From a bacterium OL-1 (GTDB lineage: Bacteria; Actinomycetota; Coriobacteriia; Coriobacteriales; Atopobiaceae): a stretch of DNA of 64,000 nucleotides. This document shows positions 7,849 to 41,889 of this stretch, piece after piece. The notes under the pieces were generated by a model. That model did not search any database. It saw only the letters and a program-made list of their open reading frames with translations, and was not told the origin of the DNA. The translations under genes and the position numbers were made by a program. Location of the stretch: contig LM994626.1 in NCBI GenBank assembly GCA_000752675.2, forward strand, positions 442,447 through 506,446. The letters are read 5' to 3'. Positions within the stretch are counted from its first letter, which is position 1, and each line of letters opens with the position of its first letter.

Positions 7849-7875
7849 GCGGGCGCCATCGCGCGAGGCGCCCGC
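7849..7875 (-). terminator. Hairpin after the XRE regulator gene
   Basis: Arms GCGGGCGCC (7849–7857) and GGCGCCCGC (7867–7875) form a perfect 9-bp stem 12 bases downstream of the regulator stop, followed on the minus strand by GCTTTCGG. The short T run makes it a moderate terminator candidate. Confidence 0.5.
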
Positions 7876-7886
7876 GTACGGATTCG

Positions 7887-8408: not shown

Positions 8409-8629
8409 CGGTTCCCCTCCCCTCCTGGGCCCAGCATCACCCGGGCGAAGACTCCACTCAAGAAAGCATAGCTTGCATGGACAACAACGGCACGACAGCA
8501 GAACTGTCGTGCCATCTACCAGTACGTTTGTACCACGCACTGCGCCAGAAGATGGTGACTCGATGTGCACGCGGGGAATCGCGTAAGCTAGTCCCTCGCA
8601 CGTTTTCCCGTTGTTAGGAGCACCACTTC

Positions 8630-10171
8630 ATGGCCAAGCGCCGCAGCACCACTGCATCAACCACTATCACTGCCGAGAAGGACCTCCCTACCCGCTTTGA
8701 GGATCTCGGTCTCTCCAACCGCGCCCTTGCCGCCGTGAGCGACATGGGCTATGAGGCGCCCACGCCAGTCCAGGCTGCCTCGATTCCCGCAGCTCTCGCA
8801 GGTACCGACGTCATGGCAGCCGCACAGACAGGCACCGGCAAGACGGCCGCCTTCCTGCTTCCCACGCTCGACCGCCTGGGCCACGCGCGCCACGGGCAAG
8901 GGCCGCTCATGCTTGTGGTCACGCCCACGCGCGAGCTTGCCGCCCAGATCGAGGAGGTCGCAAACGCCATATGCGCACACACGGGGCACACGGCAACGGT
9001 CCTCGTGGGCGGTGTCTCCTACGAGCCGCAGCGCGCCGCACTCCGCAAGGGGTGTGACCTGGTGGTTGCCACGCCGGGGCGTCTTATCGACCTCATCAAC
9101 TCGGGCGACTGCAACCTTTCGCAGGTAGAGACCCTGGTTCTGGACGAGGCGGACCGCATGCTCGACATGGGCTTCCTGCCCGACATGCGCCGCATCGTGG
9201 CCAAGACGCCCGCCTCGCGCCAGACCTTGCTCTTCTCGGCAACGCTCTCCGACGACGTGCTGGACAACACCAAGTCGCTGGTCAACAACCCCGTACGCAT
9301 CGAGATTGCGCACAAGGGCACAGCCGCCGAGACGATTGACCAGTATGTGCTGCCCATCTCGCACGAGGCCAAGAACGACGCCCTCATAGAGATTCTGCAC
9401 CGCGAGGGCGCCGAGCGTGTGATTGTTTTTGTGCGCGGAAAGCACCGCGCCGACTCCGTTTGCCGGCGCCTTCGCAAGGCCGGCATCGAGTGCGCGCCCA
9501 TCCACAGCAACCGCAACCAGAACCAGCGTGCCAGCGCGCTGAGGCGCTTTGCCGACGGCGAGGTGGGCGTGCTGGTGGCAACCGACATCCTGGCGCGCGG
9601 CATCGACATCCCCAACGTGGCATATGTGGTCAACCTCGACGTGCCCTCGGACGCCGAGGACTACATCCACCGCATTGGCCGTACCGGTCGTGCGGGCGAG
9701 TACGGCTGGGCCCTCACCTTTGCCACGCCCGAGGAGGAGTTCGACCTTCGCGACATCGAACGGCTCATGGGCAAGAACATCCCTGTGTACCCGCGCGCGC
9801 AGGGCATCCCTCTAGGCGAGAAACCGCTGGTACTTGACCCCAATCGCACGCCAACGGACCGTCTTCCCGGCAAGAAGGAGCGCAAGAAGCTTGTGGACGA
9901 GCGCCGCGAGGAGCGCATGGCACGCACCGCAGAGATTGTGGCGAGCCGCTCCCAGCACCAGCGCAAGGCGCAGCCGCAGCGTGGGGCGAAGCCCGGTCGG
10001 CCGACCGCCGAGAGTGCCATTCCGCCCGAGAAGCCCAAGGCGGGCCGTCGTCGCGGCAAAACCGCATCCCAGCAGTGCGCCCAGGCGAAGAGACCCCAAA
10101 CCGCTGGCAGAGCGGGCAGACCACAGGGCCGACGTCACCCCGGCGACCACGGCGGCATGCCGCGCCGCTAG
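8630..10171 (+). CDS. DEAD-box RNA helicase
   Basis: 513 residues. Ordered helicase motifs: Q motif (LGLSNRALAAVSDMGYEAPT), I (AQTGTGKT), Ia (PTRELAAQ), Ib (TPGRLIDL), II (LDEADRMLD), III (FSATLS), IV (VIVFVRGKHRAD), V (ATDILARGIDIP) and VI (HRIGRTGRAG). The last ~130 residues form a basic Arg/Lys/Gln-rich tail, as in RhlE/CsdA-type proteins that unwind structured RNA during cold shock or ribosome assembly. Start ATG 8630 is preceded by AGGAG. There is no co-directional partner nearby. Confidence 0.95.
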   Translation: MAKRRSTTASTTITAEKDLPTRFEDLGLSNRALAAVSDMGYEAPTPVQAASIPAALAGTDVMAAAQTGTGKTAAFLLPTLDRLGHARHGQGPLMLVVTPTRELAAQIEEVANAICAHTGHTATVLVGGVSYEPQRAALRKGCDLVVATPGRLIDLINSGDCNLSQVETLVLDEADRMLDMGFLPDMRRIVAKTPASRQTLLFSATLSDDVLDNTKSLVNNPVRIEIAHKGTAAETIDQYVLPISHEAKNDALIEILHREGAERVIVFVRGKHRADSVCRRLRKAGIECAPIHSNRNQNQRASALRRFADGEVGVLVATDILARGIDIPNVAYVVNLDVPSDAEDYIHRIGRTGRAGEYGWALTFATPEEEFDLRDIERLMGKNIPVYPRAQGIPLGEKPLVLDPNRTPTDRLPGKKERKKLVDERREERMARTAEIVASRSQHQRKAQPQRGAKPGRPTAESAIPPEKPKAGRRRGKTASQQCAQAKRPQTAGRAGRPQGRRHPGDHGGMPRR

Positions 10172-10208
10172 GTCTCTCAGCAATGTTTGGGCTGCTGCCC
10201 TGCATCGA

Positions 10209-10436
10209 AACGCTTCTCGTTACACAAAAAATCGCTCCGTTGCGCCGAACTGCCCTTCGTTACACGCAACTTTTTGAGCTTTCAAAGTATCGACTCTTGG
10301 ATGGCACAATATGTTGTGTCATCCAATTTTTTTGCACACAACATGCATTATCTGTACTTCACCTAATGCCTAAACTACGTGTAACGAAGGGCAGTTCGGT
10401 GCACGGAACGCGAAAAATGTGCAACGAAGGCCCTTA
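10209..10436. repeat. Inverted-repeat element with AT-rich core (family CGTTACAC)
   Basis: A 22-bp perfect inverted pair (10245–10266 and 10378–10399; arm begins CCGAACTGCCCTTCGTTACA) flanks ~110 bases of AT-rich DNA with a central dyad (ATGGCACAATATGTTGTGTC). Outside each arm is a second, less exact unit (CGTTACACAAAAAA on the left, ATGTGCAACGAAGG on the right), so each side carries two tandem units pointing inward. It fills the gap between the helicase and the DUF438 gene. I see no ORF of note inside. Confidence 0.8.
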
Positions 10437-10594
10437 CGATGTAGCGTAATTATTATAGAAGTTGTGACTACAACAGTTCACGCCTCCTTACTCTCATATG
10501 CTGGCTTCGACAAACGGCGCCGGCTCGCAACGTACCTCCGCAAGCGGCACGGCACACCAGGCCCTACGGCCTGGCCAAGAGACCAGGAGCAGCC

Positions 10595-12148
10595 ATGAGC
10601 AAGATACTTGACCTCAACAAGAGCGTTCACGACCTCGCCGAGGAATTCCCCGAGTTCACCCAGATCATGGTGAGCCTCGGCTTCACGGATATTGCCAAGC
10701 CCGCCGCACTCAACACGGTTGGCCGCGTGATGACCGTTCCGCGGGGGTGCTCCATCAAGGGCATCAGCCTGGATGAGGCCGTGAGGACGTTCGAAGCCGC
10801 CGGCTTCACGGTCGAGGGCGCAGGCGCCAGCCAGGTCGCGCCCGCCACTGAAGCCGCGCCCATGGCCGACGCCACCATCAACCAGCAGGCAGAAGCCCCC
10901 CTCGGCACCAAGGTCGAAGGCCTCGACGAGGCCGGCCGCGCCAAGCTCCTCGAGAGCTACATCGCGCGTCTCTCGTCCGGCGAGGCTCTCGAGGATGTGC
11001 GCGCAGACTTTGTCGCGAACTTCAGCGACGTGGACGCCGGCGAGATTGCCCGCGCCGAGCAGGGCCTCATTGAGGGCGGCGCGAAGATCGACGACGTCCA
11101 GCGCCTCTGCGACGTCCACTCCGCGCTCTTCCACGGCGCCACGCGCGAGGAGAAGATCGCCAACGCCGAGGAGGCGGTTATGGGCTCGCTCACGCAGGGC
11201 GCGGGTGACCTCAACACGAGGTTCCTCACCAACCTCCCCGGCCATCCCATGCACGTGTTCTCCCTCGAGAACCAGGCCATCTCCGAGCAGATCGCCCACA
11301 CGCGCGCCGCGCTGGGCACCCCCGACGCCATGGATGAGCTGCGCACCCTCTCCCAACTGGGCGTCCACTACGCCAAGAAGGGCGACCTCCTCTACCCCGT
11401 CCTCAAGGTCCGCCACGGCTACTCCGGCCCCTCCGACGTCATGTGGGGCGTCGACGACGAGATTCGTGCCGAGCTGCGCGCGCTTCTCGGCGCCAAGGAG
11501 CAGGACGCAGCCTGGCTCGAGCGCGCCGAGAAGGTCCTCACCCGCGCCGACGAGATGGTCTACAAGGAGGCAAACATCCTGCTGCCCCTGTGCGCCCAGA
11601 ACTTCTCGGGCGACGAGTGGCTCCAGATGTACGCCGACCTCAAGGGCTATGACCTGTGCCTCATTGATGATGCCGGCACCTGGGGCGCCGGCGAGGAGTA
11701 CTGCCAGCAGCGCGCGGCGGCAGCCGAGAAGGGCACGGGCAACCAGGCTGACGCCGCAGGCGCGGTGCAGCTGCCCACCGGCCGCCTGACCCCCGCCCAG
11801 CTCGACGCAATGCTCAACACCATCCCACTGGAGATCACCTTCGTCGACGACACCGATATCAACCGCTACTGGAACGACGACGGTGAGAAGAAGCTCTTCA
11901 AGCGCCCGTCTTCGGCGATAGACCGCGAGGTCTGGAGCTGCCACCCGCCCAAGATCCAGGAGATGGTGCGCCATGTAATCGCCACGCTCAAGAGCGGCGA
12001 GCAGGACTCCGTCGACATCTGGATGGAGAAGGAGGGCGAGCCCGTGCTGGTGCGCTACATGGCCGTGCGCGACCGCGAGGGTTCTTACGTTGGCACCATG
12101 GAGGTGGTCCAGCGCATGGGGTTCGCGCGAGACCACTTCAAGGCATAG
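10595..12148 (+). CDS. DUF438 domain-containing protein (DUF1858-like + DUF438 + hemerythrin-like + PAS)
   Basis: 517 residues. The N-terminal ~60 residues (SVHDLAEEFPEFTQIMVSLG) resemble DUF1858. A DUF438 segment follows (LLESYIARLSSGEALEDVRA). The middle is rich in His/Glu spaced as in an HHE hemerythrin-like four-helix bundle (CDVHSALFHGATREE, GHPMHVFSLENQA). The C-terminal ~130 residues look like a PAS sensor domain (PLEITFVDDTDINRYWND, YVGTMEVVQ). Proteins of this plan are proposed oxygen, NO or redox sensors; the ligand is not visible. Followed after 64 bases by an unrecognised small gene, probably the same transcript. Confidence 0.85.
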   Translation: MSKILDLNKSVHDLAEEFPEFTQIMVSLGFTDIAKPAALNTVGRVMTVPRGCSIKGISLDEAVRTFEAAGFTVEGAGASQVAPATEAAPMADATINQQAEAPLGTKVEGLDEAGRAKLLESYIARLSSGEALEDVRADFVANFSDVDAGEIARAEQGLIEGGAKIDDVQRLCDVHSALFHGATREEKIANAEEAVMGSLTQGAGDLNTRFLTNLPGHPMHVFSLENQAISEQIAHTRAALGTPDAMDELRTLSQLGVHYAKKGDLLYPVLKVRHGYSGPSDVMWGVDDEIRAELRALLGAKEQDAAWLERAEKVLTRADEMVYKEANILLPLCAQNFSGDEWLQMYADLKGYDLCLIDDAGTWGAGEEYCQQRAAAAEKGTGNQADAAGAVQLPTGRLTPAQLDAMLNTIPLEITFVDDTDINRYWNDDGEKKLFKRPSSAIDREVWSCHPPKIQEMVRHVIATLKSGEQDSVDIWMEKEGEPVLVRYMAVRDREGSYVGTMEVVQRMGFARDHFKA

Positions 12149-26966: not shown

Positions 26967-27313
26967 TGTACGGAGAACCGGGTGACGAGTATTGGGTGTC
27001 CGAGCGCGCGAGAGTGTACCTGTACGGGGCGGAGTACTCGACGCGAGCGTTGGAGGACATGGAGCCGCGAGTGAGGGAGAGGGACTCCTGGATGCAGGCC
27101 GTCGAAGTGTTCTGTAATCGCGGAGTTGCGCCTGCCTTGCGCTCCCTGGCGCGAGGCAAAGCATTTAGACTCGCCCTGCTAGTCTTGGGCGTACTCGTAT
27201 GCCTGGACACGAACGACTTCGACCAGGGCAGCGTGGGGTACTCAAAGCCAGCGGCGAGGAAAGCTCTGACAACGGCGCGCTCGCACTTCCATTGGCGTCA
27301 TGCTGCCCAATGA
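26966..27313 (+). CDS. Doubtful small ORF after the lipoprotein terminator
   Basis: 115 codons from ATG 26966 (MYGEPGDEYWVSERARVYLY …). It contains one hydrophobic run (FRLALLVLGVLVCL) that could span the membrane. There is no ribosome-binding site and the start lies in the terminator U-tract. No family recognised. It may be a gene remnant; low confidence. Confidence 0.2.
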   Translation: MYGEPGDEYWVSERARVYLYGAEYSTRALEDMEPRVRERDSWMQAVEVFCNRGVAPALRSLARGKAFRLALLVLGVLVCLDTNDFDQGSVGYSKPAARKALTTARSHFHWRHAAQ

Positions 27314-27445
27314 GACTATCGTGAGCGTCATATTTACGACTCAATCGCGCGGGACACGACCGCCGAGAAGTGGCAGTACGTAGAAGAGGCAGCAGCGGGG
27401 CTAATTACGCATTGGCCTCGCTCGCCAGCACGGGACAACTGGACG

Positions 27446-29002: not shown

Positions 29003-29293
29003 TATTCTTTTTCCAAGTCTGTCTTCGGAGGTAGGCGAGAACTAGAACGGACTAAAACGGAGTAAGTCGAAGCGGCTAAGGGGCCAACACCCTTATAACG
29101 GCGGTAAGGAAGATTTCGTCAGGTATTCTGACCTGCGAATAAAGGAGTAGTACGGAGTAGAACGGACTAGAACGGAGTAAGCGGGGAGCTGGGACTGCCC
29201 ACTTGAGCTCTAGTGCATCGATTCCTGCGTTTGACACTACCCCTATAACTTGTTGTCGGGACATACGGCGCTGGCAACCTATGGACAGGGCAT
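29003..29293. repeat. Right copy of the ~260-bp diverged direct repeat
   Basis: Same ordered blocks as 24346–24604: ATTCTTTTTCCAAG, GTCTTCGGAG, AAAACGGAGTAAG, CAGGTATTCTGACCTGCGAA, GTACGGAGTAGAACGGACTA, AGCGGGGAGC, CTTGAGCTCTAGTGCATCGA, TTGACACTACCC and GGACAGGGCAT. It has more AACGG(A/C) iterations than the left copy. Confidence 0.75.
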
Positions 29294-29990
29294 GGACTTG
29301 TCCTACGACACCCTCATACACGAGAAGAATGCAGACAAGATGAGGATGTTCCCGTCCTGCGTGATGTACGACCAGAGGGAAAGGCACCTAAATTGAAGGA
29401 ATTTCCATACCATGGGGCAATCTGCCTGCCCCGGCGCTCTTTAGAGTTCAAACAATGGCGAGCTAATCTAATCATACTAATAATTGAATTAGTTTCAGTT
29501 TGAATCACATTAGTTCGGGAGTCTCCGCAATCCGAAGGGTTGACGAGACGGCAGTCCTCATCTTACATCTCATCGCCGACGCGAAGATTGAGACCATGGA
29601 GTACAAGACGAACGCAAGCAACACGTCTTCCGCTGAGTGGAGAGTAGGAAAGTAGAGTCGGCTTTTCGTTCGAGGGGTTCTGAATATCTGGGTTACCAGT
29701 CGCCGTACCTGCTGCTGTGGGCCCCCGGCCTACCGCAAGTCATCACTTGACTCCCAAGGAGCACGCTCGGACCCGTGGCGCGACCAGTTAGACCCGTAAT
29801 GTGGCACGGACGACCCCTCCATTGATGTGGGCAAGCGGAAGAACCGGAGATTTCCGGTGATGGACGGCAGACAGACCAAAGGCTCTTCTCTTCTCACGGA
29901 AGTACTCCATGGTCTCGCACGGAGTGTAAACAATATTCTCTTCATTTCCAGATGACGGTTATACGGCGAGCCATTATATCCTGTACCCTC

Positions 29991-30268: not shown

Positions 30269-30468
30269 CCAAGCGCTCCTCTTGTCTCTTAGCAAGCTCT
30301 CCTGAGCTGTTAAATAAACATAGGAAGCACATAAATATTGCCTGGTATCTTACTAGTCCCCTAGAGTGTAGATTCATGCACTGGTACGCACTTGCGCATC
30401 TCGGCGTTTTCCTGCTCAATCCTTTGGGGCCCTAGCAATCTTCGAGCGCTGAGAGTAAACTACCAGTG

Positions 30469-30497
30469 TTTCGTGCTATTTTCCGTTATTTCGTGTT
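30469..30497 (+). promoter_or_regulatory. TTTCGTG direct repeats before the RM operon
   Basis: TTTCGTGCT (30469–30477) and TTTCGTGTT (30489–30497) are 20 bases apart, about two helical turns, just upstream of the ribosome-binding site of the HTH-methyltransferase gene. This is a plausible operator for an autoregulating RM system. Confidence 0.35.
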
Positions 30498-30512
30498 GGG
30501 AGTTTATCCACC

Positions 30513-31505
30513 GTGCAAAACAACCTTGCCTGTATGGATGATATCGCCGCTCACTTTGGCGTAACTCCCGAAACCATACGCAATTGGATTAAAACTCGGA
30601 ATTTCCCAGCAATGAAAGTTGGGGGACGGTGGCGTTTTGACTGGGGTGAGGTGAACGCTTGGGAAGAGGCATGCTCCACAGCGAATCAGAACGAATCAAA
30701 TGCCCAGCTCGGCTACAGGGATTACGCTACAGCAGATAAAGCCTTATCAAAAATTAATAGAGATTATCATGAGTCTATAACTACAGACTCCATCACGCTC
30801 ATTAATGGTGACTGTTTGGATTCCTTGCGGCAGTTGGAGTCCAATTCAGTCGATTTCGTTCTCACTGATCCCCCGTACAATCTCGGTCTCTTCATGCAGA
30901 AGAGAGCAACGAATCTCAAACAGATGCGTGATAACTATTTTGGTGCCGCTGGGTGGGACAACCTTGATGCCGAAGGTTGGACGGCGTCGATGGATGCTTT
31001 TTTCGATGAAGCGGCTCGCGTCGTACGTAATGGTGGTTCGATGATTGTTTTCATGGCAGTTATAAAGGTCGAGACAATCATCAACTTAGCTCAGAGCCAC
31101 GGCTTTTACTACAAAACGACTGGCACCTGGCACAAGCTCAACCCGATGCCCAGGAACATGAATCTCCACTTCATTAACTCGACTGAATCTTGGATATACT
31201 TCGTGAACAAGGCGCATACCGGCACTTTCAACAACAACGGCAAGGCGTTGCATGACTTCTACGAGACACCTGTTACGCCAAAGAGTGAGAGGGCTTTTGG
31301 GAAACACCCAACACAGAAGCCTGTTGAGCTCATGAACTACTTTGTTCGCACCCTCAGCAACCCAGGCGATCTCGTTCTGGACCCATTCATGGGCAGCGGC
31401 AGCACAGGCGTCTCGGCAGTTGGACTTAACCGTCGCTTTGTTGGAATAGAACTCGATGAGCGGTATTTCGATATTGCTTCGAAACGATTGGGGGTCGATG
31501 CATAA
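30513..31505 (+). CDS. HTH-fused beta-class site-specific DNA methyltransferase
   Basis: 330 residues, GTG start after GGGAG. Residues ~6–52 are an excisionase/MerR-type helix-turn-helix (DIAAHFGVTPETIRNWIKTR, VGGRWRFDWGEVNAWEE). The rest is an amino-methyltransferase with motif IV TDPPYNLG (~118–125) before the AdoMet-binding motif I region LDPFMGSGSTGVSAVGLNR (~288–306), the beta-class order. DPPY points to N6-adenine or N4-cytosine methylation. First gene of the defence operon; it overlaps the next gene by a few bases. The fused HTH is unusual and may give DNA targeting or autoregulation. Confidence 0.9.
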   Translation: MQNNLACMDDIAAHFGVTPETIRNWIKTRNFPAMKVGGRWRFDWGEVNAWEEACSTANQNESNAQLGYRDYATADKALSKINRDYHESITTDSITLINGDCLDSLRQLESNSVDFVLTDPPYNLGLFMQKRATNLKQMRDNYFGAAGWDNLDAEGWTASMDAFFDEAARVVRNGGSMIVFMAVIKVETIINLAQSHGFYYKTTGTWHKLNPMPRNMNLHFINSTESWIYFVNKAHTGTFNNNGKALHDFYETPVTPKSERAFGKHPTQKPVELMNYFVRTLSNPGDLVLDPFMGSGSTGVSAVGLNRRFVGIELDERYFDIASKRLGVDA

Positions 31506-32577
31506 AATGACCCCAACGGTAATTGACCTGTTCGCTGGTGTGGGTGGATTGTCTCTCGGTTTTGAACTCGCCGGCTTCAAGATTGCTCTCGCTAACGAGT
31601 GTGACCAGTCCATAGCTGATGCATATATGAAAAATCGACCCGGCACGCCCATGATCGTGGAGGACATAACAAAGCTTCCTGTTGACGAGACTTTTGGCCG
31701 TTTTGCCGGCAAGACCACAGCTGTTATAGGTGGCCCTCCTTGCCAAGGCTTTTCCCAAAAGGGACAGCGAAAGAGCATCAACGACCCTCGTAATTTCTTG
31801 TTCAAGTACTACTTTGAGGTTGTCAAGCGAGTGCGTCCGACATATTTCGTCATCGAAAATGTCCCCAATCTACTTACAACCGAAAACGGATATTTCAAAC
31901 AGGAGATTGTTGAGCTATTCAGCGGAATTGGGTATGCGGTAAGTTGTGGCATCCTTTGCGCAGCCGACTTTGGCGTACCTCAAGACCGCCATCGTACCTG
32001 CATTATTGGCAAGCTAGGAGAAACACCCGTCTCTTTGCCTGAGCCCAATGGCGTGCACACAACCATTTGGGATGCCATCAGTGACTTGAGCTATCTCGAA
32101 TCAGGCGAGGGTGCCGAGGTACAGGACTATCGGCTTCCCCCCCAAAGCGCCTATCAGAGGATGCTACGCAAGGGCTCGGACAAACTGTATAACCACGTTG
32201 CCACACGCCACAGCAAGGTAACACTTGAGCGACTCAAGATGATTCCGCCAGAGCATGGCAAGGAAATGCTGCCTGCCGAGCATCTGACCAAATCCATCTA
32301 TAGCGGCACTTGGTGCCGCATGAAGAAAAGTGGCATCGCGAAGACAATCACGACCCGCTATGACACGCCATCCTCCGGCGAGTTCACTCACCCATACCTC
32401 AACCGTGCAATCACAACGCGCGAGGCTGCTCGAATACAATCATTTCCCGATACCTTCCATTTTTATGGCACCAAGTCATCTCAGATGAAGCAGGTCGGGA
32501 ATGCCGTTCCGCCTCTGATGGGGAAGGCTATTGCGAATCGCATTATGCTGGATCTACGCGACCAGCAAGATAGGTGA
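31498..32577 (+). CDS. DNA cytosine-5 methyltransferase
   Basis: 359 residues. Motif I TVIDLFAGVGGLSLGFELAG, motif IV GGPPCQGFSQKG with catalytic Cys (~81), motif VI VIENVPNLL, motif VIII QDRHRTCII and motif X QVGNAVPPLMGKAIANRI are all present. It methylates C5 of cytosine in a specific site and should protect host DNA from the endonuclease encoded downstream. Two starts are possible: ATG 31498, overlapping the upstream stop, or ATG 31507; the GGGGG site favours neither decisively. It ends in a TGA overlapping a GTG of the next gene. Confidence 0.95.
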   Translation: MHKMTPTVIDLFAGVGGLSLGFELAGFKIALANECDQSIADAYMKNRPGTPMIVEDITKLPVDETFGRFAGKTTAVIGGPPCQGFSQKGQRKSINDPRNFLFKYYFEVVKRVRPTYFVIENVPNLLTTENGYFKQEIVELFSGIGYAVSCGILCAADFGVPQDRHRTCIIGKLGETPVSLPEPNGVHTTIWDAISDLSYLESGEGAEVQDYRLPPQSAYQRMLRKGSDKLYNHVATRHSKVTLERLKMIPPEHGKEMLPAEHLTKSIYSGTWCRMKKSGIAKTITTRYDTPSSGEFTHPYLNRAITTREAARIQSFPDTFHFYGTKSSQMKQVGNAVPPLMGKAIANRIMLDLRDQQDR

Positions 32578-32582
32578 TTCAT

Positions 32583-34556
32583 ATGACAACACCTGTACCC
32601 TATAAGCCCACAAAGCCATTGGATCCGAGACTAGTTACGAAGACTTCTCTTCGCGATCCAAAGAAGGCTATCGCTGCCCTCATCCTACTTTGGTACGCAA
32701 AGGGCAAGCCCGGAGAAACCGAATACGGCAAAAACGAGGGCGTTTCAACAGAGGGTGGGATACTTGACGATGATATCGTCAACTCAATCAGCGAGCTCTT
32801 AAGGAACCATGGAGCTTCCCCTCAGAACAGGTCACTGCGCGATTTATTGGCTGGCAATGCCCTCTTTACAAGCCAACTCGAAGCGCTTAACGCTGCTTTC
32901 GAACTTGTATGGCACATGGCAAGTTTCAACTTCCTCTCCTCAAGTAACCGAGGCAAGGAGCGGACGGGCGGCAAGAGGTTTAGGAAGAGAATTGCCTTTT
33001 CCACGAACATGGACTTGATCGATGTTATCGCAGGAGATGATCTCGGCTCGCTCCTTGAGACCCTTCTCGATTGGCTTGCTGGAAATCAAGTTTCCAATAA
33101 TAAATCGATGGAGATGCGCCTAATCCGTGCTCTCACCGCTTTCTCTGAAGTCTCGTTTTACAAAACCGGGAAAGGCTCTTCAGGGGAAATCTATAACCCC
33201 ATAGGAATATACACGCGCCTTATTGGAGGAGACCAAACCGTAAGTACCACCGACGGAGATGAGGCTCAAGGCCCAACGCGTATTCTAAATAGCGCCTTGC
33301 AGGATGGTCTAAACCCTTATTTGACCTGCTCACAACACAATGTGTCCCTCGCTCCAAACATTAGCTCTCGTGACATTGACGGTTATGCCGAACGTGCGGC
33401 AACCTCTTTACGTCTTTCCAACATTGAAATCGACGCCCAGCAACAGAGCGTTCAGGAGGAACAAGAAATGGCTGATGCCGTCGGATACCCCCATAACCTC
33501 ATCTTCTTTGGTGCACCCGGAACCGGCAAGTCATATCAGCTAAACCGTATTGCTCAATCTTGCTTTCCGAGCGAGCATGTGAGGCGTGTGACTTTTTATC
33601 CTGACTACACTTATTCGCAATTTGTTGGCTCCTTTAAGCCCGTGACCCGTTACGCCGATCCAAAGGATGACGAGCCTCTCACTAAGGAGAAGCCCTATAT
33701 TTCTTACGAGTTCGTGCCCGGTCCCTTCCTCTCCACCTATATCTCGGCAGTCCAGAATCCCAGCAAGAATTACCTTCTTATAGTTGAAGAGATCAACAGA
33801 GCGAATCCTGCTGCGGTGTTCGGCGATATCTTTCAACTCCTGGATCGCAAACCTTCTGGACGTAGTGAATACGAGATTGCCGTTCCGAAGGAGATGGAGG
33901 ACTACCTACGCATCTTCCTCCCCCAGTATGCGACCAACGCGTACATCCAAGACCCAAGCGAGATATTGACAGAACAGGAACGCTTGGCACATGAGGAGCA
34001 TAGGCTGTCTCTTCCTCCCAACATGTATATTTGGGCGACCATGAACAGCGCCGACCAAGGCGTCTTTCCGATGGACACGGCCTTCAAGCGCCGCTGGGAC
34101 TTCCGCTACATGGGCATCGACGAAGGCGATCATGAGCCGATAAAGGCTATTGATGACATGTGCATCGATAATTTCGTAGTTACCATCGCAGGAGTCCGGG
34201 TGCATTGGAACGGACTTCGCAAGGCTCTGAACGACCTGATGCGCGACGCCCGCATCAATGAGGACAAACTGCTCGGTCCCTTCTTCCTTGCTCCTTCTAC
34301 TCTCAATGATGACCCGGTGCCAGACGGAAGCGGAACTGTTTTCCAGGCTTCTTTCAAGGATAAGGTCCTCCTGTACCTTTACGAGGACGCAGGGAAGATG
34401 CATCGACCGGCGCTCTTCGCGGATGACAAGGCGAGTTATTCCGAAATCTGCGACAAATTCGACAGCTCGGGCGTAGCCGTGTTCAAGGGGATTGACATCT
34501 CCTCGATTCTCGAGGATAGCGCCCGTGATGACGCCAATCTTCCCAACGAGGAGTAA
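32583..34556 (+). CDS. McrB-like AAA+ NTPase (LlaJI-type restriction subunit R1)
   Basis: 657 residues from ATG 32583 (AGGTGA site; a GTG at 32574 overlaps the previous stop). The first ~300 residues are a separate N-terminal domain, perhaps for DNA recognition. The AAA+ module begins HNLIFFGAPGTGKSYQLNRI (Walker A ~309–317), then YLLIVEEINRANPAAVFGDI (Walker B) and MYIWATMNSADQGVFPMDTA, the McrB-specific MNxADxS-like signature, with Arg finger region AFKRRWDF. Such NTPases drive translocation for a partner nuclease; the partner here is the next gene. Confidence 0.9.
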   Translation: MTTPVPYKPTKPLDPRLVTKTSLRDPKKAIAALILLWYAKGKPGETEYGKNEGVSTEGGILDDDIVNSISELLRNHGASPQNRSLRDLLAGNALFTSQLEALNAAFELVWHMASFNFLSSSNRGKERTGGKRFRKRIAFSTNMDLIDVIAGDDLGSLLETLLDWLAGNQVSNNKSMEMRLIRALTAFSEVSFYKTGKGSSGEIYNPIGIYTRLIGGDQTVSTTDGDEAQGPTRILNSALQDGLNPYLTCSQHNVSLAPNISSRDIDGYAERAATSLRLSNIEIDAQQQSVQEEQEMADAVGYPHNLIFFGAPGTGKSYQLNRIAQSCFPSEHVRRVTFYPDYTYSQFVGSFKPVTRYADPKDDEPLTKEKPYISYEFVPGPFLSTYISAVQNPSKNYLLIVEEINRANPAAVFGDIFQLLDRKPSGRSEYEIAVPKEMEDYLRIFLPQYATNAYIQDPSEILTEQERLAHEEHRLSLPPNMYIWATMNSADQGVFPMDTAFKRRWDFRYMGIDEGDHEPIKAIDDMCIDNFVVTIAGVRVHWNGLRKALNDLMRDARINEDKLLGPFFLAPSTLNDDPVPDGSGTVFQASFKDKVLLYLYEDAGKMHRPALFADDKASYSEICDKFDSSGVAVFKGIDISSILEDSARDDANLPNEE

Positions 34557-34559
34557 CTC

Positions 34560-36032
34560 ATGCGGGCGGAATATGCCCTCGTCCGCGAGCTCAAGCCCTA
34601 TTCTCTGGCAGAGGTTGCGGACAGGCTCTCTTGCAACCAAAGCCAGATCCAAGAAATCTTAGGACGTCTCCTTGCGAGTGGCGTCGTGCGCTACCGCACT
34701 CGCGGTGACCAATACGAGTCCGAGATTGCCGACGAAGCCGAAGCCGTCGATGACGAGTGTTACCAGTTCCGTTACGTAGGAATCGTCATTGTCGAGCAGA
34801 TAGTCATCGTATGCTATCCGAAGTACATCCGCCGAGAGGGCGGTCCGACCGAGAACGAGCTTCAGCAGATGGTGCGCGTGCTCCGTAAGCTGGACGGCTA
34901 TGGCGAGCTGCCATATCCCCAGGGAGATGCCGCATGGAGCAACGAGCTGTCCGTTATCGTGCGCCTGCTCCAGCTATATGACGAGCACGGGACGTACAGC
35001 AATTTCGAAGAGACCCGCGAGCTTAACGGAAACGGTGTCATTGACTGGGGCCGCACCGTCGATACGGTTACCCCCGTGCTCGCCGACGGTTTTCCCGTCT
35101 ATTTCGACTATTGGACCAGAAAGACCAGGCGCGACGAGTCCGATCTAATCACCCGCACTCATCGTGCCATCTTGACTGAATGCTCCCGTTTCCTCTCTCG
35201 CTGTGGCATCGCTGAGCTATTGGGTTTCGGAGATGTTGAACTCACTGACGAGACCTTGGCCGATCTCGGCGACCTGGAAGCGCTGGACTGGAGACTCGAG
35301 CACGAACGCTCTGGGCAGTTCGTCACCTGGAAGCAGGAGGCAATCGACCTCATGCGACTCTATCTGAGCGAGGGAAGCGCCGCATCGGCAAGCGAGAAGG
35401 TACTCTGCCTGGGAACGACCGCTTACTACTACGCCTGGGAACTCGCCTGCAAAAAGGCTTTTGGGGACTTGATGGACACCAAGCTCGGCAAGCTCCCTAT
35501 CAAGCTTGCTGGTAATTGGTGCAATCGCGCATCGGAGACCATGCTGGACATCATTCCCCACCCTCTGTGGGAACGTCCAAATGGAATGGGTGGCTGCGGC
35601 GATGTTGCCACGCTCATTCCTGACACCGTCGCCTTCGCATATGACTCCGACGGTCAGCATGTCTTCTGTATCTACGACGCTAAGTACTACGTGCCCACAG
35701 CCAGCGGCAAGATGGAGGGGCAGCCTGGCGTCGAATCCGTGACGAAGCAGTTCCTCTATCAGTCAGCATACCGGGATTTCGTGCTCGACCATGGTTTCGA
35801 CCGAGTGTCAAACGTTTTCCTAGTTCCCAGTGAAGGTGGTAACCCCACTTTTATGGCGAGAGTCTCTTTTCCAGGCGTATTGGATGCACTGGTGGACGAT
35901 ATTCCTCAGTTCAGCCGATATGTCGACATGTGGGCAATGCCAGCAAGCACCATCTTCGAGTGCTATCTCTCGTCCACTCATTTGGGTGCGATGACAATCT
36001 CGCTTCTCACCGCACCCTCACGGCACTGTTAG
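34560..36032 (+). CDS. LlaJI family restriction endonuclease (R2)
   Basis: 490 residues, three bases after the McrB-like gene, with GAGGAG site. The body matches the LlaJI endonuclease family (PF09563) in layout: an N-terminal winged-helix-like part (LVRELKPYSLAEVADRLSCN), a helical middle (HRAILTECSRFLSRCGIAEL), and a PD-(D/E)xK-like nuclease core ending VFCIYDAKYYVPT (~370–380; D-x-K). In LlaJI and BsuMI systems this subunit works with a McrB-like NTPase to cut unmethylated DNA. The site recognised cannot be read from sequence. Confidence 0.85.
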   Translation: MRAEYALVRELKPYSLAEVADRLSCNQSQIQEILGRLLASGVVRYRTRGDQYESEIADEAEAVDDECYQFRYVGIVIVEQIVIVCYPKYIRREGGPTENELQQMVRVLRKLDGYGELPYPQGDAAWSNELSVIVRLLQLYDEHGTYSNFEETRELNGNGVIDWGRTVDTVTPVLADGFPVYFDYWTRKTRRDESDLITRTHRAILTECSRFLSRCGIAELLGFGDVELTDETLADLGDLEALDWRLEHERSGQFVTWKQEAIDLMRLYLSEGSAASASEKVLCLGTTAYYYAWELACKKAFGDLMDTKLGKLPIKLAGNWCNRASETMLDIIPHPLWERPNGMGGCGDVATLIPDTVAFAYDSDGQHVFCIYDAKYYVPTASGKMEGQPGVESVTKQFLYQSAYRDFVLDHGFDRVSNVFLVPSEGGNPTFMARVSFPGVLDALVDDIPQFSRYVDMWAMPASTIFECYLSSTHLGAMTISLLTAPSRHC

Positions 36033-36042
36033 AGGAGGCCGT

Positions 36043-37287
36043 ATGAGACATCTCATTAACGACGAGGGTTCGAACCCCGAGGATGTTATCTCGCTTACGT
36101 CTACGTCCTCGCAAACCGCCGTGACTGATCCGGTAATGCTCCGCGACCCCACGAGCACGACCAGGCTTTACTTCAAGCCTTTGTTCGTCAAAAACTCGAA
36201 AGATCCAAGCAAAGGGGTCGAGGGAAAAATCGTCTACGAGAGGAAAGGCAAGAAGGACGAGAGCTTTCCTACCGATATCGGCACCGAACTTCTGTCAAAG
36301 AAGTCGATCCACAAGGGAGACACTCTCGAGCTCTCGCTAAACTCGTCTGAGACCAAGTCGCTTTATCTTGGCCTTCGCAAGCTCTACGCACTTGCCGGCT
36401 CCCTGAAGTACATGCCCAACGGCAACGTCTCTTTCATCGAGATGGACGATACGGCACAGAAGCTCCTCTCCATGCTGAAGAGCAACCCATCCGTCGCGCG
36501 CATGCTCGTTGCGGAACCAGACGGTTTCGAGCTCATCGAGGAACTCTTCCGCCTCCTGACGCAAGGCACCTCCCGCGACAAGCTACGGCAGGTCCTTGAC
36601 GGTCTCGAGAGTCCCAACCTCCAGGAGCTCTCTTCCGGCATCAATCTCGTGCAACTAAAGAGCGCTTCGGCAGTTCTCAGGGACAACCTGAGCAATTCGC
36701 ATGAAGAGTTCTGGCAGTCAGAGGTTTTCTCCAAGTACCCTTGGATTATCTCCCAGGTCTTCTCTTCTCCCTGCGTTCTGTTTGGCGAGAAGGCGTATGT
36801 TGGCGGAAAGGCAATTGATAACCAAAGCGGCAACGTCGTTGACTTCATCTACCAGAATCAAATGACCAAGAACGTCGCACTCGTCGAGATAAAGACCCCA
36901 TGCACCCCGATTCTCGGAAACCAGTACCGACAGCAGGTCAGGTCACTCAGCCGTGAGATGAGCGGTGCGATAAACCAGGTCCTCAACTATAAGCAGAGCC
37001 TGCTGAGGGACTACGGCAACCTGGTCACAGCTTCGACCAAAGATTTTTTAGCATTCAACCCGCCATGCGTCGTAATAATAGGAAACACTTCCGAATTCAA
37101 TGCTGACGGAGTCAGAGACCAAGCGGCTTTCTCGACATTTGAGAACTTCAGGAATTGCCTTAACGGCGTCACCATCGTCACCTACGATGAGCTGCTCGAG
37201 AAGATATATAGCTTGCTCGGGTTGTTGCAGACAGACGCGAATACACCAGAATCCGACCAAGTGCCCCTCTTGGAACTCAATGACTGA
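36043..37287 (+). CDS. sduA: Shedu family immune nuclease (DUF4263)
   Basis: 414 residues, ten bases after the LlaJI gene with GAGGAGG. The N-terminal ~230 residues are family-specific and largely helical. The C-terminal DUF4263 domain has the nuclease core WQSEVFSKYPWIISQVFSSP, NVVDFIYQNQMTKNVALVEI and KTP (D … E-x-K at ~265–283), then QVLNYKQSL and VVIIGNTSEF. Shedu is a stand-alone anti-phage nuclease in most genomes; here it is the last gene of a restriction–modification operon and followed by a terminator, so the two systems should be co-expressed. Confidence 0.88.
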   Translation: MRHLINDEGSNPEDVISLTSTSSQTAVTDPVMLRDPTSTTRLYFKPLFVKNSKDPSKGVEGKIVYERKGKKDESFPTDIGTELLSKKSIHKGDTLELSLNSSETKSLYLGLRKLYALAGSLKYMPNGNVSFIEMDDTAQKLLSMLKSNPSVARMLVAEPDGFELIEELFRLLTQGTSRDKLRQVLDGLESPNLQELSSGINLVQLKSASAVLRDNLSNSHEEFWQSEVFSKYPWIISQVFSSPCVLFGEKAYVGGKAIDNQSGNVVDFIYQNQMTKNVALVEIKTPCTPILGNQYRQQVRSLSREMSGAINQVLNYKQSLLRDYGNLVTASTKDFLAFNPPCVVIIGNTSEFNADGVRDQAAFSTFENFRNCLNGVTIVTYDELLEKIYSLLGLLQTDANTPESDQVPLLELND

Positions 37288-37346: not shown

Positions 37347-37375
37347 GCCCGTGCCTGTTGGGCGCGGGCATTTTT
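37347..37375 (+). terminator. Terminator of the RM–Shedu operon
   Basis: GCCCGTGCC (37347–37355), 5-base loop, GGCGCGGGC (37361–37369, one G:U pair), then ATTTTT. Just before the scaffold relic, so it may alternatively be of phage origin. Confidence 0.75.
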
Positions 37376-37406: not shown

Positions 37407-37946
37407 ATGGACGGTGAGTAGGATGCAACGCAGGCGGAAGGCCAGCAGGAGCAGCAGGAACTCGGCGGTGCGCTGCAGTCGCAGGCGGGCGAAGACGCCC
37501 AGGCGCACAAGCAGGAAACGCTAGGCGCGGACGAGTGGCGCAAGGCGCTCAAGGCCAAGGACGCCCAGAACGCCGAGCTCCAGGGCAAAGTCGCGAGCGC
37601 CGCCAAGACGGCGGAGGCGACCGATGCGCTGAACGCGGAAATCGTGAAGCTCAAGCAGCAGATGGCCGACGAGCGCGTGGAGTTCGCGCTGAGGGCGGCG
37701 GGTGCCCGCTCCGTGAGGGCCGCGTAGACCCTGTCCACCGACCACGACGGCGACATCCGGGTGCTCGCGGCGACCGAACCGTGGTTCTTCGAGGGCGCGA
37801 AGGGCACTTCACAAAGGACTTCACAAACATCTACGGGCAGTTCAACGGGCTTGGAGCCCGCAGGCGTCGTAGGTGGCAATGATGCCACCTACATGCGCCG
37901 CTGGGAGAGGGTCGCCGGCCTCGCCGACGAGGGCAAGGAGGGCTAG
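37407..37946 (+). pseudogene. Phage scaffolding protein with two in-frame amber codons
   Basis: The frame from ATG 37407 (GAGGGG upstream) reads MDGE, TAG, then DATQAEGQQEQQELGG, a long coiled Glu/Lys/Ala region (EWRKALKAKDAQNAELQGKV), VEFALRAAGARSVRAA, TAG, TLSTDHDGDIRVLAATEPWF and a tail ending GLADEGKEG. This is the layout of small phage scaffolds (FALRAAGxRSVxAA … AxEPWFF). Both interruptions are TAG where Gln (CAG) fits. The gene itself ends in TAG. It precedes a broken capsid gene as in phage head operons. Confidence 0.75.
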
Positions 37947-37949
37947 GAC

Positions 37950-38317
37950 ATGCCGAACAGCATCGCAGCTATCAAGAACTACACGACCATCCTCGACCGC
38001 GTGTACCAGCGCGAGGCGACGAGCTCGTGCCTGAACTCGCCCGCGCGCATGGCGCGCGCGGCCCCAACGCGAAGGAGATCATGATCCCGAAGATCTCCGT
38101 CTCGGGCCTGGACGACTACACGCGCAACGTGGGATACAAGACGGGCTCGATCGACTTCGCCTACGAGACGAAGGCCCTCAACTACGACCGCGGCATCAAG
38201 CTCCTCGCCGACGTGATGGACGTGGAGGAGGCGGGAGTACTGGACTGCTTCGTGCAGGCGGGCGCCGGCGGGGTGGCTCCGCGGGCATCGATCGCAGCAT
38301 CTGGCCTCGGCGACTAA
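37950..38317 (+). pseudogene. Truncated, frameshifted phage major capsid protein
   Basis: The start MPNSIAAIKNYTTILDRVYQ, REATSSCLNSPARM is in one frame; the continuation NAKEIMIPKISVSGLDDYTR, NVGYKTGSIDFAYETKALNY is one base off, so there is an indel near 38060. The sequence ends soon after LLADVMDVEEAGVLDCFVQA, far short of a full capsid (~300 residues). With the scaffold it marks the head-gene end of a decayed prophage. Confidence 0.8.
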
Positions 38318-38483: not shown

Positions 38484-39230
38484 CTACATCCTCGGCACGG
38501 GCACGCCATAGTCACAGGGGTCATCTATCCCGACCATCTGGGCCCAGCGGGCGGAAAGCAGCTGCGCGTACAGCTCGGGCCACAGGCCGTACGGGCCGAG
38601 CGAGTAGCCGTCGTTCACCTCTACGAGCAGCGTCCGGCCGTCCGAGGTGACACCGAAGTCGGCGGCATACCCGGCCGGCGCGCTGGCATACGCGGCAATC
38701 GCCTGCTCGATGACCTCCCTGCTCGGCGCCTTCGACCAGTCTCCGCGGTAGTGGCGAACGTCGAGGATCTCCCCGTACCTTACGAAGCACCGGCACTCCG
38801 AGACGAAGTCGACCACCTCGCTGCAGATGACGGGGAAGTCCTCCCCGCAGCAGCCTTTGCCGATGAGGTCCTTCGTGCTGGCAACCACGCACCCGGTGAA
38901 CCGCTTGCCCTCGACGGGCTTCACGAACAGCGGCCACGAGCCTACCTCGGTGCTCACATGGTCAATCGTCGTCTTCAAGAGCCTCCTGCCCAGAAACGGA
39001 CGCAGCTCCTCTGGGTAGTTAATCTCGCTCGTATCTGCGCCAAGAGCGCGGAGCCTGGCACGGACGACGCCGAGGCCACCCACGACCACGTCTTCGCGGT
39101 CGCAGGCATCTAGGTCGTCGACGGTTTCGAAAGGAACTGTCTCGAACCCCATGTTCTCGAACCCGAGCCACGCGGTGTATTGGCTCATGCCTCGCGGCAT
39201 CCCGTTCCTGCTCTGGATGTACGCTCTCAT
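38484..39230 (-). CDS. ATP-grasp protein, R2K clade (DUF4343)
   Basis: 248 residues from ATG 39230 (GAGGAG site). Conserved landmarks of the R2K ATP-grasp clade: WPLFVKPVEGKRFTGCVV (ATP-binding Lys), ICSEVVDFVSECRCFVRYGE (EvVDFxSExRxF), LDVRHYRGD, YAADFGVTSDGRTLLVEVND and the C-terminal LGPYGLWPELYAQLLSARW. Such enzymes form amide or ester bonds using ATP, and many lie in phage or plasmid contexts; the substrate is unknown. It is directly beside the capsid relic, in opposite orientation. Confidence 0.82.
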   Translation of the reverse strand: MRAYIQSRNGMPRGMSQYTAWLGFENMGFETVPFETVDDLDACDREDVVVGGLGVVRARLRALGADTSEINYPEELRPFLGRRLLKTTIDHVSTEVGSWPLFVKPVEGKRFTGCVVASTKDLIGKGCCGEDFPVICSEVVDFVSECRCFVRYGEILDVRHYRGDWSKAPSREVIEQAIAAYASAPAGYAADFGVTSDGRTLLVEVNDGYSLGPYGLWPELYAQLLSARWAQMVGIDDPCDYGVPVPRM

Positions 39231-39645: not shown

Positions 39646-41715
39646 TTAGCTCGTGGGTGTCATCTTGATGAGGAGCTCGCCTTTGTCTACGTCGAGAAGC
39701 TCAAACAACCTTTTTAGAAGCTCAATTTTGAACCAAGTGCTTGTGCTCGATTTGACGAAGAGCCCGTCGCTCACCTTCGAGTAGCCCTGCCTCTCCTCGT
39801 GCTCGAAGGCGCTCCCGGGAAACGAGCTCCCCTCCGAGATTGAGTAGAGCCGGCCGAGGTCGAGGTCGCACAGCGAGCGCAGGACGCCGACCTCCATCTC
39901 CTTCCAGGTCTTGACGGTCGTGTCGTCCCCCATGAACGAGTACGAGACTATGCTTCTGCCGGTAAACTCCGTGTCGTCCCCCAGGGACGCCTCGTCGGGG
40001 ACCTCGCGGGTTGGCTGGTACGAGGTGGAGATGGATGGCCAGAGCTCGACGAACCTATCCTCGAGCATGTCCTGCCGGCTCTTCAGCTCACTCTCGCCCC
40101 AGGTCTCCTGGTCCCCGACCCACTTGTTCATCCTGAAGACGCTGTCGGCGAAGCCGTTCTCCATGTCGCGCTTGGTCGCGAAGTCCCTGTTGCTGTACTC
40201 GGAGTTGTAGGCGGTGATGGTCAGGTTCGCGATGCGGTCCTTCCACTCCTCGTGGACCCTCTCGAACCCGTCCCCCAGCGCCCTGCGCCATGAGGCGTTG
40301 AGCGTCTGGGGCATGATGTGCTCGACCGAGAACCTCCCGTCCCTGAGCCCGCCGACGACGTCGACGCGCTCCCTGCTATCGCCGTTCTCCAGCCGGTCGT
40401 ACAGGTAGAGCTTCCTGTTGCCGATGCGGTAGTAGTCGCGAGTCGCCAGCGAGGAGCGGAACTCAGCATTCGAGGGAAACCTCCCCGTTCCTGTCTTGTG
40501 GAGCAGCGAGTACTTCATCGCATCAGGATACGTGGCGCCGTCCGCGACGCCGCGCATCGCATCGCCATGCAGGGTTTCGAACACTTTGTTCAAGGAGTTC
40601 GTCGGAATTCCGCAGGACCATCTCCTGAACAGGTACGACTCCACCGCCTCCATGCACTCGACAGCCTGAATCTCGCTAACCGTGCCGTTATCGAGGGCCG
40701 CCAGCAGGTTCAGCGAGAACGGGATTACCACGCCCATCTGCAGCAAGCTGAGCCTGTACAGAACTGCATCGAACTCGCTCCGGTCACGGTCCGGGCTCAC
40801 GCACCTCCCGTAGCGCTCGGAGAAGCTCCTCAGGTCACCAAGCATTGCGAGTGTGTCGAGCCTCCCGGACTGCGCGGACGTATACGTCCTACGCGCATAG
40901 GCCACATAGGACTGGTAAACGCGCCCCACCACCGGGGTCTTCCCCATCTTGGCCGCGAGGTAGTAGCGGACGAAGTCGCTCACCTGCCCCAGCGTGTTCC
41001 TCTCAATTGGAATCCAATACTCCTCGTAGCAACTCTCCTGTTCCTTCTCGGCAAGATCCATGAGGATAAAGTTCCGGATCTTGTCCGCTTCGGTCAGGTC
41101 GAGGCCGGTCGAGTTGAGGCTCTCGAAGACCCTCTGGGCATCGTCGTGCTCGTCGAGCTTCACGTCTATCACCTTTAGGCGCTTGACCGCGTCGAAGAGC
41201 TGGTCGCCCGTGATGGGCATCTCGGCGATGCGCCTGAGGAAGTATCTGTAGTTGCGGGTCACGTTCGACCCCTCGACCAGGCTCCCGGCGCCCGCAACGA
41301 CGGCGCTGAAGGCCCCCATGTCCCCCTTAACGAGCTTGAGGCGGAGCTTCTGCTCGTCGGGGTGATAGGTGTCGACCAGGAACTGTCCCTCGATGTAGTC
41401 CGCTTTGCTGGCCTCCACCGAGGTGACGTCGCTCTCGGGCGAGCGGAGCTGCGCGACAAGTGCGGCCAGGAGGATGAACACCGTGGTGATGCGCTGCTGC
41501 CCGTCAATCACCACGCGGGTGTCGCCCTCTCGTTTCGAGACGATGCTCCCAAAGAAGTGCTCCCCCATGCCGGTGGTCGCCACGCTCTGGAGGTCATCGA
41601 AGAGCCTCTTGCACTGCTCGATCTTCCAGTCGTAGTTGCGCTGGTACACGGGTATAACGAATCGAGTCTGCTTGCCCTCGATGATGTATGTGAGGTACTC
41701 GTCCTCGCCGCGCAT
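39646..41715 (-). CDS. DUF262 + DUF1524 (GmrSD-type) nuclease
   Basis: 689 residues from ATG 41715, which has GGAGG five bases away; longer ORF starts at 41787 lack one. The N-terminal DUF262 domain carries FVIPVYQRNYDW and VVIDGQQRITTVFILLAAL (DGQQR, 71–75), then RVFESLNSTGLDLTEADKIR. The C-terminal DUF1524 HNH domain has FSVEHIMPQTLN (~465) and NLTITAYNSEYSNRDFATKR. GmrSD enzymes cut modified (glucosylated hydroxymethyl-C) phage DNA with NTP; here GmrS and GmrD parts are one chain. A ~120-residue C-terminal extension follows. Probable type IV-like defence nuclease. Confidence 0.9.
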   Translation of the reverse strand: MRGEDEYLTYIIEGKQTRFVIPVYQRNYDWKIEQCKRLFDDLQSVATTGMGEHFFGSIVSKREGDTRVVIDGQQRITTVFILLAALVAQLRSPESDVTSVEASKADYIEGQFLVDTYHPDEQKLRLKLVKGDMGAFSAVVAGAGSLVEGSNVTRNYRYFLRRIAEMPITGDQLFDAVKRLKVIDVKLDEHDDAQRVFESLNSTGLDLTEADKIRNFILMDLAEKEQESCYEEYWIPIERNTLGQVSDFVRYYLAAKMGKTPVVGRVYQSYVAYARRTYTSAQSGRLDTLAMLGDLRSFSERYGRCVSPDRDRSEFDAVLYRLSLLQMGVVIPFSLNLLAALDNGTVSEIQAVECMEAVESYLFRRWSCGIPTNSLNKVFETLHGDAMRGVADGATYPDAMKYSLLHKTGTGRFPSNAEFRSSLATRDYYRIGNRKLYLYDRLENGDSRERVDVVGGLRDGRFSVEHIMPQTLNASWRRALGDGFERVHEEWKDRIANLTITAYNSEYSNRDFATKRDMENGFADSVFRMNKWVGDQETWGESELKSRQDMLEDRFVELWPSISTSYQPTREVPDEASLGDDTEFTGRSIVSYSFMGDDTTVKTWKEMEVGVLRSLCDLDLGRLYSISEGSSFPGSAFEHEERQGYSKVSDGLFVKSSTSTWFKIELLKRLFELLDVDKGELLIKMTPTS

Positions 41716-41889
41716 ATAGCCTCCGTTGGATATCATCGGCAAATTATCCATCAGCCAATAAAACGACTCAGAGCAAACTATCATCAACCCAGAGATAGAT
41801 ATGAGGATAGGCCAATTCCCTTTGTATTAGCGATAATGTCAAACGCTAAATTGCTCTGTTGAATTCGTAGCAGCTCTCCGTCCCCCGAA

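Follow-up and report, generated by a model that had tools for sequence, protein, structure and literature searches.

A Shedu nuclease gene at the end of a predicted LlaJI-type restriction-modification operon in a prophage remnant of the Coriobacteriales

A stretch of 64,000 nucleotides from bacterium OL-1 (Coriobacteriales; Atopobiaceae; GenBank assembly GCA_000752675.2, contig LM994626.1, positions 442,447 to 506,446; designated the window) was analysed and found to carry, at 30513-37287 of its forward strand, five open and intact genes in tight series, of which the last two encode a LlaJI-type restriction endonuclease and a Shedu nuclease. Domains were named with Pfam and the five proteins were compared with the defence models of PADLOC, which gave the following assignments (genes 1 to 5 in order):

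30513..31505, + strand: beta-class amino-methyltransferase with an N-terminal helix-turn-helix (HTH) domain (Pfam HTH_17 and N6_N4_Mtase; DPPY at 119, FMGSG at 292; PADLOC MTase_II)
31507..32577, + strand: m5C DNA methyltransferase (PF00145 DNA_methylase, E 7e-73; PCQ/ENV/QVGN motifs; PADLOC MTase_II)
32583..34556 (alternative GTG start 32574), + strand: McrB-like NTPase, counterpart of R1.LlaJI (AAA_5; PADLOC REase_II, PDLC03448; E. coli McrB 6hz4; GAPGTGKS/EEINR/NSAD motifs)
34560..36032, + strand: LlaJI-type endonuclease, counterpart of R2.LlaJI (RE_LlaJI PF09563, E 6e-39; PADLOC REase_II, PDLC03447, E 4e-69)
36043..37287, + strand: Shedu nuclease SduA, B. cereus type (SduA_N, E 5e-12; SduA_C, E 9e-21; PADLOC SduA, PDLC00399, E 1e-103)

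Gene 1 was assigned from DPPY standing ahead of FxGxG, the motif order of the beta class, and the motifs expected of the next three genes (PCQ/ENV/QVGN, GAPGTGKS/EEINR/NSAD and PD...DAK) were likewise found.

The intergenic gaps along the operon are 1, 5, 3 and 10 bp, the second becoming a 4-bp overlap if gene 3 starts at the GTG at 32574; the start of gene 2 at 31507 was picked by likeness to a sister operon in genome G279 (locus L013), an earlier in-frame ATG lying at 31456. A preliminary description of this DNA had placed a LlaJI-type endonuclease module and a Shedu gene within one operon, which is borne out by domains, order and spacing; its five genes, their order and their common strand also stand, while the spacing of 3-10 bases that it gave is corrected to the figures above. 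The llaJI-shedu gap of 10 bp (TAGAGGAGGCCGTATG: stop, ribosome site AGGAGG, start) leaves no space for a promoter or terminator, and a promoter scan of 7.7 kb, which returned 2 sites where 5.0 were expected, found no promoter-like site directly before shedu. A hairpin follows the last gene:

37347..37369, + strand: intrinsic terminator-like hairpin of 10 pairs with an ATTTTTC tail, 3' of shedu

It agrees with the one terminator described previously, but terminator-like matches overall were not in clear excess of shuffled sequence (9 compared to 6.9, standard deviation 2.4). From this layout, co-transcription of the five genes as a single transcript is very probable. Two features were identified ahead of the first gene:

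30456..30506, + strand: inverted repeat TAAACTACCA / TGGGAGTTTA (arms 30456-30465 and 30497-30506; 90% complementary), a single match that is possibly due to chance
30472..30497, + strand: operator-like tandem repeat of the CGYGCTATTT type, 15-16 bp before the first start codon

The 26-bp tandem repeat matches the upstream region of the G279 sister operon at 22 of 26 positions (maximum of 18 in 100 shuffle pairs). It is unique within the window at up to 3 mismatches and is matched among 106 loci only by L013, the pattern having been built from the window and G279 sequences themselves. This suggests a candidate operator for the HTH domain of gene 1, and the HTH-methyltransferase is a possible self-regulator.

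In the LlaJI system of Lactococcus lactis pNP40 and in BsuMI, two methyltransferases, an McrB-like R1 and a PF09563 R2 with PD...DxK are encoded co-directionally, and the window is alike in this respect: its R1 counterpart contains an McrB-like NTPase domain and its R2 counterpart is a PF09563 protein with the catalytic-type motif PD...DAK, of the form PD...(D/E)xK (PD at residues 354-355, D373xK375), neither protein being truncated. The R2 counterpart gave no significant match to solved structures. The window differs in its prophage position, in the trailing Shedu gene and in its methyltransferases, which are one m5C enzyme and one beta-class amino-methyltransferase with an HTH domain, whereas LlaJI systems have two m5C enzymes. 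The best solved chains for gene 1 were DpnA and CcrM, with weaker matches to N4-cytosine enzymes; its product is likely to make m6A, and m4C is kept as the alternative. That a beta-class enzyme has replaced one m5C enzyme, as first proposed from the sequence alone, is supported by Pfam, solved relatives and motifs, and the same arrangement was found in G279, where the sister operon has the same four genes with the beta-class enzyme beside a single m5C enzyme (identities to the window of 62% for gene 1, 79% for the m5C enzyme, 45-48% over the full length of the McrB-like protein and 37% for LlaJI). The predicted cassette is a LlaJI variant and not a canonical LlaJI system.

In the available part of PMC1459862, R1.LlaJI is the assigned specificity subunit and R2 the nuclease subunit. 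A Pfam scan of the McrB-like subunit of the window found no family confined to its N-terminal half, and the AlphaFold model was unusable (pLDDT 35.9). This half (residues 1-290) is 41% identical between the window and G279, and because the two proteins align along their whole length it keeps company with the methyltransferase pair, which is expected if it reads the site. The LlaJI operon of G647 (L066:3154-4476, + strand) is headed by an HTH_17-m5C methyltransferase fusion, which parallels the HTH-amino-methyltransferase of the window.

The product of the fifth gene aligns over residues 10-396 with the solved Bacillus cereus SduA (8ti8, E 2e-61), and this alignment together with SduA_N places it in the B. 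cereus type. A Foldseek search with its AlphaFold model, which is of moderate confidence (pLDDT 65.6), returned 8ti8 first and the E. coli SduA 8ps5 eighth. The protein has the PF14082 nuclease domain with conserved catalytic residues, D267, E282, K284 and Q312 being invariant in 9 aligned sequences. It is thus like the B. cereus Shedu in possessing both SduA_N and SduA_C, in its full-length alignment and in keeping the catalytic-type residues, while it is unlike it in context: Shedu is known as a stand-alone single-gene system, and the window copy, 10 bp behind llaJI, is the last cistron of a restriction-modification (RM) operon.

Recurrence of the gene order was assessed in a phylum draw (396 genomes), an order draw (297), a Bacillota draw (398) and the family (140, searched with PF14082), with one genome per species; the PF09563 and PF14082 searches of the order draw were taken as covering the same genomes, likewise the two Bacillota searches, and the adjacency figures are plain counts with no defence-island null. 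PF09563 was present in 5 of the 396 phylum-draw genomes. The order draw had PF09563 in 13 genomes and PF14082 in 11, with both in G000 (the genome of the window), G279 and G322 and the two genes adjacent in G000 only. In the family, PF14082 was present in 5 of 140 genomes and directly behind LlaJI in 2, the window and G1094. The G1094 locus (L092, minus strand) encodes an m5C methyltransferase (10751-11998), an McrB-like protein (9165-10754), LlaJI (7680-9158) and Shedu (6472-7683), with a 4-bp overlap of the last two; the genes were confirmed by Pfam and the last two also by PADLOC. Identity to the window was 48-49% for LlaJI and 50-51% for Shedu, compared to 29% over 164 residues for the methyltransferase, and the McrB-like protein aligned only at residues 296-656, its N-terminal half not aligning. 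When 12 LlaJI loci other than the window and, in addition, L092 were searched with two Shedu proteins, Shedu was found in L092 alone. Contigs end close to the genes of interest in L013, L012 and L092.

The llaJI-shedu order is real and intact and it recurs, though seldom; by these comparisons the pair has been kept, or formed anew, at great distance with a different predicted specificity half. The preliminary description had staked its proposal on PF09563 followed by PF14082 being found in other genomes; the order does recur in G1094, rare though the link is. That no other genome keeps it had seemed true after the phylum, order and Bacillota draws and was rejected by G1094 from the family search. 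A dependence of Shedu on the methylation state, which had also been suggested, is unsupported, as the G1094 Shedu stays behind LlaJI despite a different methyltransferase and specificity half.

Plasmid searches gave 6 weak matches for LlaJI and 124 records for Shedu, neighbours being viewed in 2. Viral-contig scans with the window Shedu protein and with query A1 returned no relatives, as did phage records, and a scan with query A2 returned 6 distant Shedu relatives, none adjoining LlaJI. No paper joining Shedu with LlaJI or with BsuMI was found in the literature searched, of which coverage was partial, and absence in print is not established.

The history of the pairing was examined with trees of both proteins. 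In a LlaJI tree of 14 rows the topology G1094,(G415,(G000,G530)) was obtained, with support of 82/86 for the group and 98/97 for G000 with G530; the tree omits L100 (a stop in the stretch), G527 and G577 (divergent, truncated frame), G761, G867 and five IMG/VR rows resembling order loci. The LlaJI proteins of G000 and G1094 as an exclusive pair were rejected (p-AU 0.002), and with them llaJI-shedu as one inherited unit. As the Shedu-linked LlaJI proteins are not sisters, the pairing was therefore made or lost more than once within a single prophage cargo slot, either by two gains or by a gain and two losses. A Shedu tree of 10 rows (omitting L101, G279, G1085 and G511) did not separate the closest rows and was compatible with a G000-G1094 pair (p-AU 0.45); a 14-row tree likewise did not separate them.

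Shedu was also found behind other defence genes. In G010 (L012) it overlaps by 4 bp the gene of a 1015-residue protein with HSDR_N and helicase domains (hsdR), its SduA_N match being slightly below the curated cut-off; in G279 it lies 8 bp behind an Eco57I-type methyltransferase gene whose cluster also has PglZ and BrxL genes; in G1085 it lies 11 bp behind brxL. Shedu systems were previously linked to BREX (available part of PMC12839542), and the G279 and G1085 operons resemble the window in that Shedu is embedded in another multi-gene defence operon, although their Shedu proteins are of a different subfamily (PDLC00402, no SduA_N match) and the host system is not LlaJI. A restriction or BREX gene directly precedes Shedu in 4 of 5 cases in the family and in 5 of 13 in the order, a total of mixed sampling (11 from the draw plus G1094 and G1085 from the full family search). 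Since this nuclease family is also found behind hsdR and BREX genes, it looks like an add-on to several systems and not a LlaJI subunit; in this order Shedu is best read as an addition made repeatedly to the 3' end of predicted DNA-cutting defence operons.

Other surroundings were varied. The G511 Shedu lies 5 bp behind a small open reading frame (ORF) of unknown meaning, that of G645 begins at a contig end, and in G644, G580, G658, G322 and G555 no defence gene stands directly before Shedu, upstream ORFs in GC-rich loci being doubtful. Nothing restriction-like directly precedes it in Priestia (L017) or in an Aminicenantes bin (L020, which has a gene 16 bp behind), and in Aquibacillus (L022) a PF09563 gene is 8 kb from Shedu. 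The nearest Bacillota case has an amino-methyltransferase at 54 bp (L080), and a type I cluster is nearby in L079 and L021. At L080:8666-11212 (- strand) the PF14082 gene is short (284 residues) and the gene 54 bp before it is a partial match to the amino-methyltransferase of the window. At L053:5103-8596 (G562) a Shedu gene, its product 48% identical to that of the window, lies 2 bp behind Hypoth_Ymh (PF09509) and beside AbiEi and AbiEii genes. Two IMG/VR loci were also recorded: L105:6140-8642 (+ strand), with an m5C-methyltransferase-like stretch (30%) approximately 270 bp ahead of a same-strand Shedu gene, and L104:5665-11120 (+ strand), with Shedu, then a gene weakly like the L013 ATPase, then a gene interpreted as helicase-like.

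Remnants of phage genes were identified on both sides of the operon, their names being taken from PHROGs matches of the copies in L094:

24763..25032, + strand: terminase large subunit remnant, last 90 residues (72% to the L060 terminase large subunit; intact copy in L094 named by PHROGs)
26984..27335, + strand: portal protein remnant in several pieces and frames (E 2e-5 and 0.003 when 5.8 kb alone was searched)
29286..29375, + strand: portal protein fragment past inserted sequence (50% over 30 residues, E 4e-5 when 5.8 kb alone was searched)
37476..37931, + strand: phage scaffold gene remnant (named from the L094 copy by PHROGs; weak match, E 9e-4)
37950..38287, + strand: major capsid gene remnant, truncated and in two frames (71-75% to the L060 major capsid protein, residues 1-117 of 338)

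The predicted operon is defence cargo inside a decayed prophage. LlaJI occupies the slot portal-[cargo]-scaffold-capsid, complete or partial, in 9 of 14 order loci (window, L013, L014, L060, L061, L063, L064, L065 and L092) and in 5 of 7 IMG/VR loci (L094-L097 and L099); it was not found around LlaJI in L015, L016, L059, L062 and L066. In a Coriobacteriales prophage family, as judged from these gene orders, the space between the portal and scaffold genes is a slot for defence cargo and repeatedly holds LlaJI operons. In 7 of the 14 order loci (L060:9587-9952, - strand; L014, L015, L061, L063, L064 and L065) llaJI is closely followed by a convergent gene for a conserved protein of unknown function (phrog_9945, approximately 100-120 residues), which has counterparts in IMG/VR loci L094-L097 and L099; neither of the LlaJI loci with Shedu was found to have it. 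In the IMG/VR locus L101 (466-4538, + strand) a Shedu gene with SduA_N and SduA_C is co-directional with its two neighbours, the gene for a terminase large subunit 30 bp ahead and a portal gene 50 bp behind, so phage packaging regions carry such a nuclease more than once.

Further genes were noted in these regions. In the prophage slot of the sister LlaJI operon (L013:7493-10617, + strand) there is a pair encoding an OLD-like ATPase/TOPRIM protein and a UvrD helicase, which we interpret as Gabija-like. Past the capsid remnant the window encodes a GmrSD-type protein of 713 residues (39646-41787, - strand; PF03235 and PF07510), and GmrSD-related genes were found behind the capsid remnant in L014 and also in L012. 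An R2K-clade ATP-grasp protein (38484-39230, - strand; PF18299, E 5e-49) is encoded between the capsid remnant and the GmrSD-type gene.

We lean slightly towards the reading that a LlaJI-type RM cassette gained a B. cereus-type Shedu gene at its end, as the last cistron, and travels as defence cargo of the decayed prophage, the link between the two being additive, or serial on the same DNA, with no obligate complex. Both halves, restriction and Shedu, are probably active, whereas serial use by Shedu of DNA ends made by restriction is put forward tentatively. In this reading one transcript would be made, and the HTH-methyltransferase might control it by acting at the operator-like repeat. The two methyltransferases would protect an asymmetric site, and the McrB-like subunit would find the unmodified site, at which the LlaJI subunit would cut. 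Shedu would recognise DNA ends, either those of injected or replicating phage DNA or those left by LlaJI, and cut nearby, and would thereby finish off DNA that might otherwise escape restriction through repair or recombination. According to the available part of PMC12904381, Shedu binds DNA ends, cuts at a fixed distance and is toxic when heterologously expressed, and it also appears as DNA-end sensing in the part available of PMC12407980.

Several points weigh against a functional link of this kind. The end sensing in the available parts of PMC12904381 and PMC12407980 concerns E. coli SduA by name; the B. cereus enzyme reportedly prefers ends with a 3' overhang. Few LlaJI genomes show the pairing (1 of 13 in the order draw), and among the 398 Bacillota genomes LlaJI was found in 2 and Shedu in 10, with no genome having both. 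In none of 8 measured Bacillota Shedu loci (L021, L079-L083, L085 and L086; 11 matches in all, the count omitting L084, L087 and the second of L083) does a restriction or BREX gene lie 20 bp or less in front of Shedu. Shedu was absent from the flanks (up to 8 kb) of the 7 IMG/VR LlaJI loci, several of which seem to come from genomes already represented by order loci. The G562 Shedu follows a gene of unknown function, and the close Shedu of G644 has no gene directly in front. Independent action under shared regulation would explain the same data, and a shared cargo hotspot would explain part of the adjacency and raises the likelihood that it arose by chance.

The hotspot may account for the pairing, although this is doubtful: the mobile prophage slot would collect defence genes, and Shedu would twice have landed behind LlaJI, co-transcribed yet functionally independent. 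The cargo of the slot does vary: L013 has the ATPase and helicase pair, L014 two other genes, and 7 of 14 order loci the gene for the small protein 3' of llaJI. The LlaJI proteins linked to Shedu do not form a sister pair (p-AU 0.002), Shedu of the same type lies between terminase and portal genes in L101 with no restriction gene directly beside it, and Shedu occurs elsewhere too. Against this, llaJI and shedu are co-directional and closely joined in both genomes (by a 10-bp gap in the window and a 4-bp overlap in G1094), and the same holds for the hsdR and BREX junctions. It is unlikely that the association goes as far as a serial two-nuclease machine, in which LlaJI, HsdR or BREX makes ends or nicks that mark DNA as foreign and the end-sensing Shedu is licensed only there, site-specific self/non-self discrimination so passing to a nuclease without its own. 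Such a relay would explain Shedu recurring behind unrelated DNA-cutting operons while specificity modules vary; an end-requiring nuclease on the transcript of an end-making enzyme would form a natural relay, which the hsdR partner would fit too.

Shedu might instead be kept silent by the LlaJI complex until an inhibitor made by a phage shuts restriction down and sets it free. In the available part of PMC12707154, the gene for PrrC lies in a type I RM locus and the protein becomes active once Stp has inhibited the enzyme; PrrC is described there, like PARIS, as an RM guardian. The window resembles PrrC with EcoPrrI in that its RM locus has a further effector gene attached, and the linkage is tight for both LlaJI and hsdR. 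However, PrrC is a tRNA nuclease and the window effector a DNA nuclease, Shedu of the same type occurs in several genomes without a restriction gene directly in front, and the partners LlaJI and HsdR are unrelated, with no common binding surface evident, which makes such a guardian improbable. A role for Shedu as a third restriction subunit in the LlaJI variant of the window, comparable to the three-ORF restriction cassettes of BsuMI and LlaI (available part of PMC1459862), is very improbable, as 12 of 13 LlaJI genomes in the order draw are without an adjacent Shedu, the protein matches a complete enzyme solved on its own (8ti8) and the McrB-like and LlaJI proteins of the window are not truncated.

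The acquisition of Shedu as the last cistron of a restriction cassette bears on how the nuclease spares the host's own DNA ends, which is an open point in the available part of PMC12904381. If restriction operons recurrently recruit Shedu, the cutter could supply the specificity that an end-sensing nuclease lacks and, if this is true, restriction would be the first cut in a relay and not the whole of the defence.

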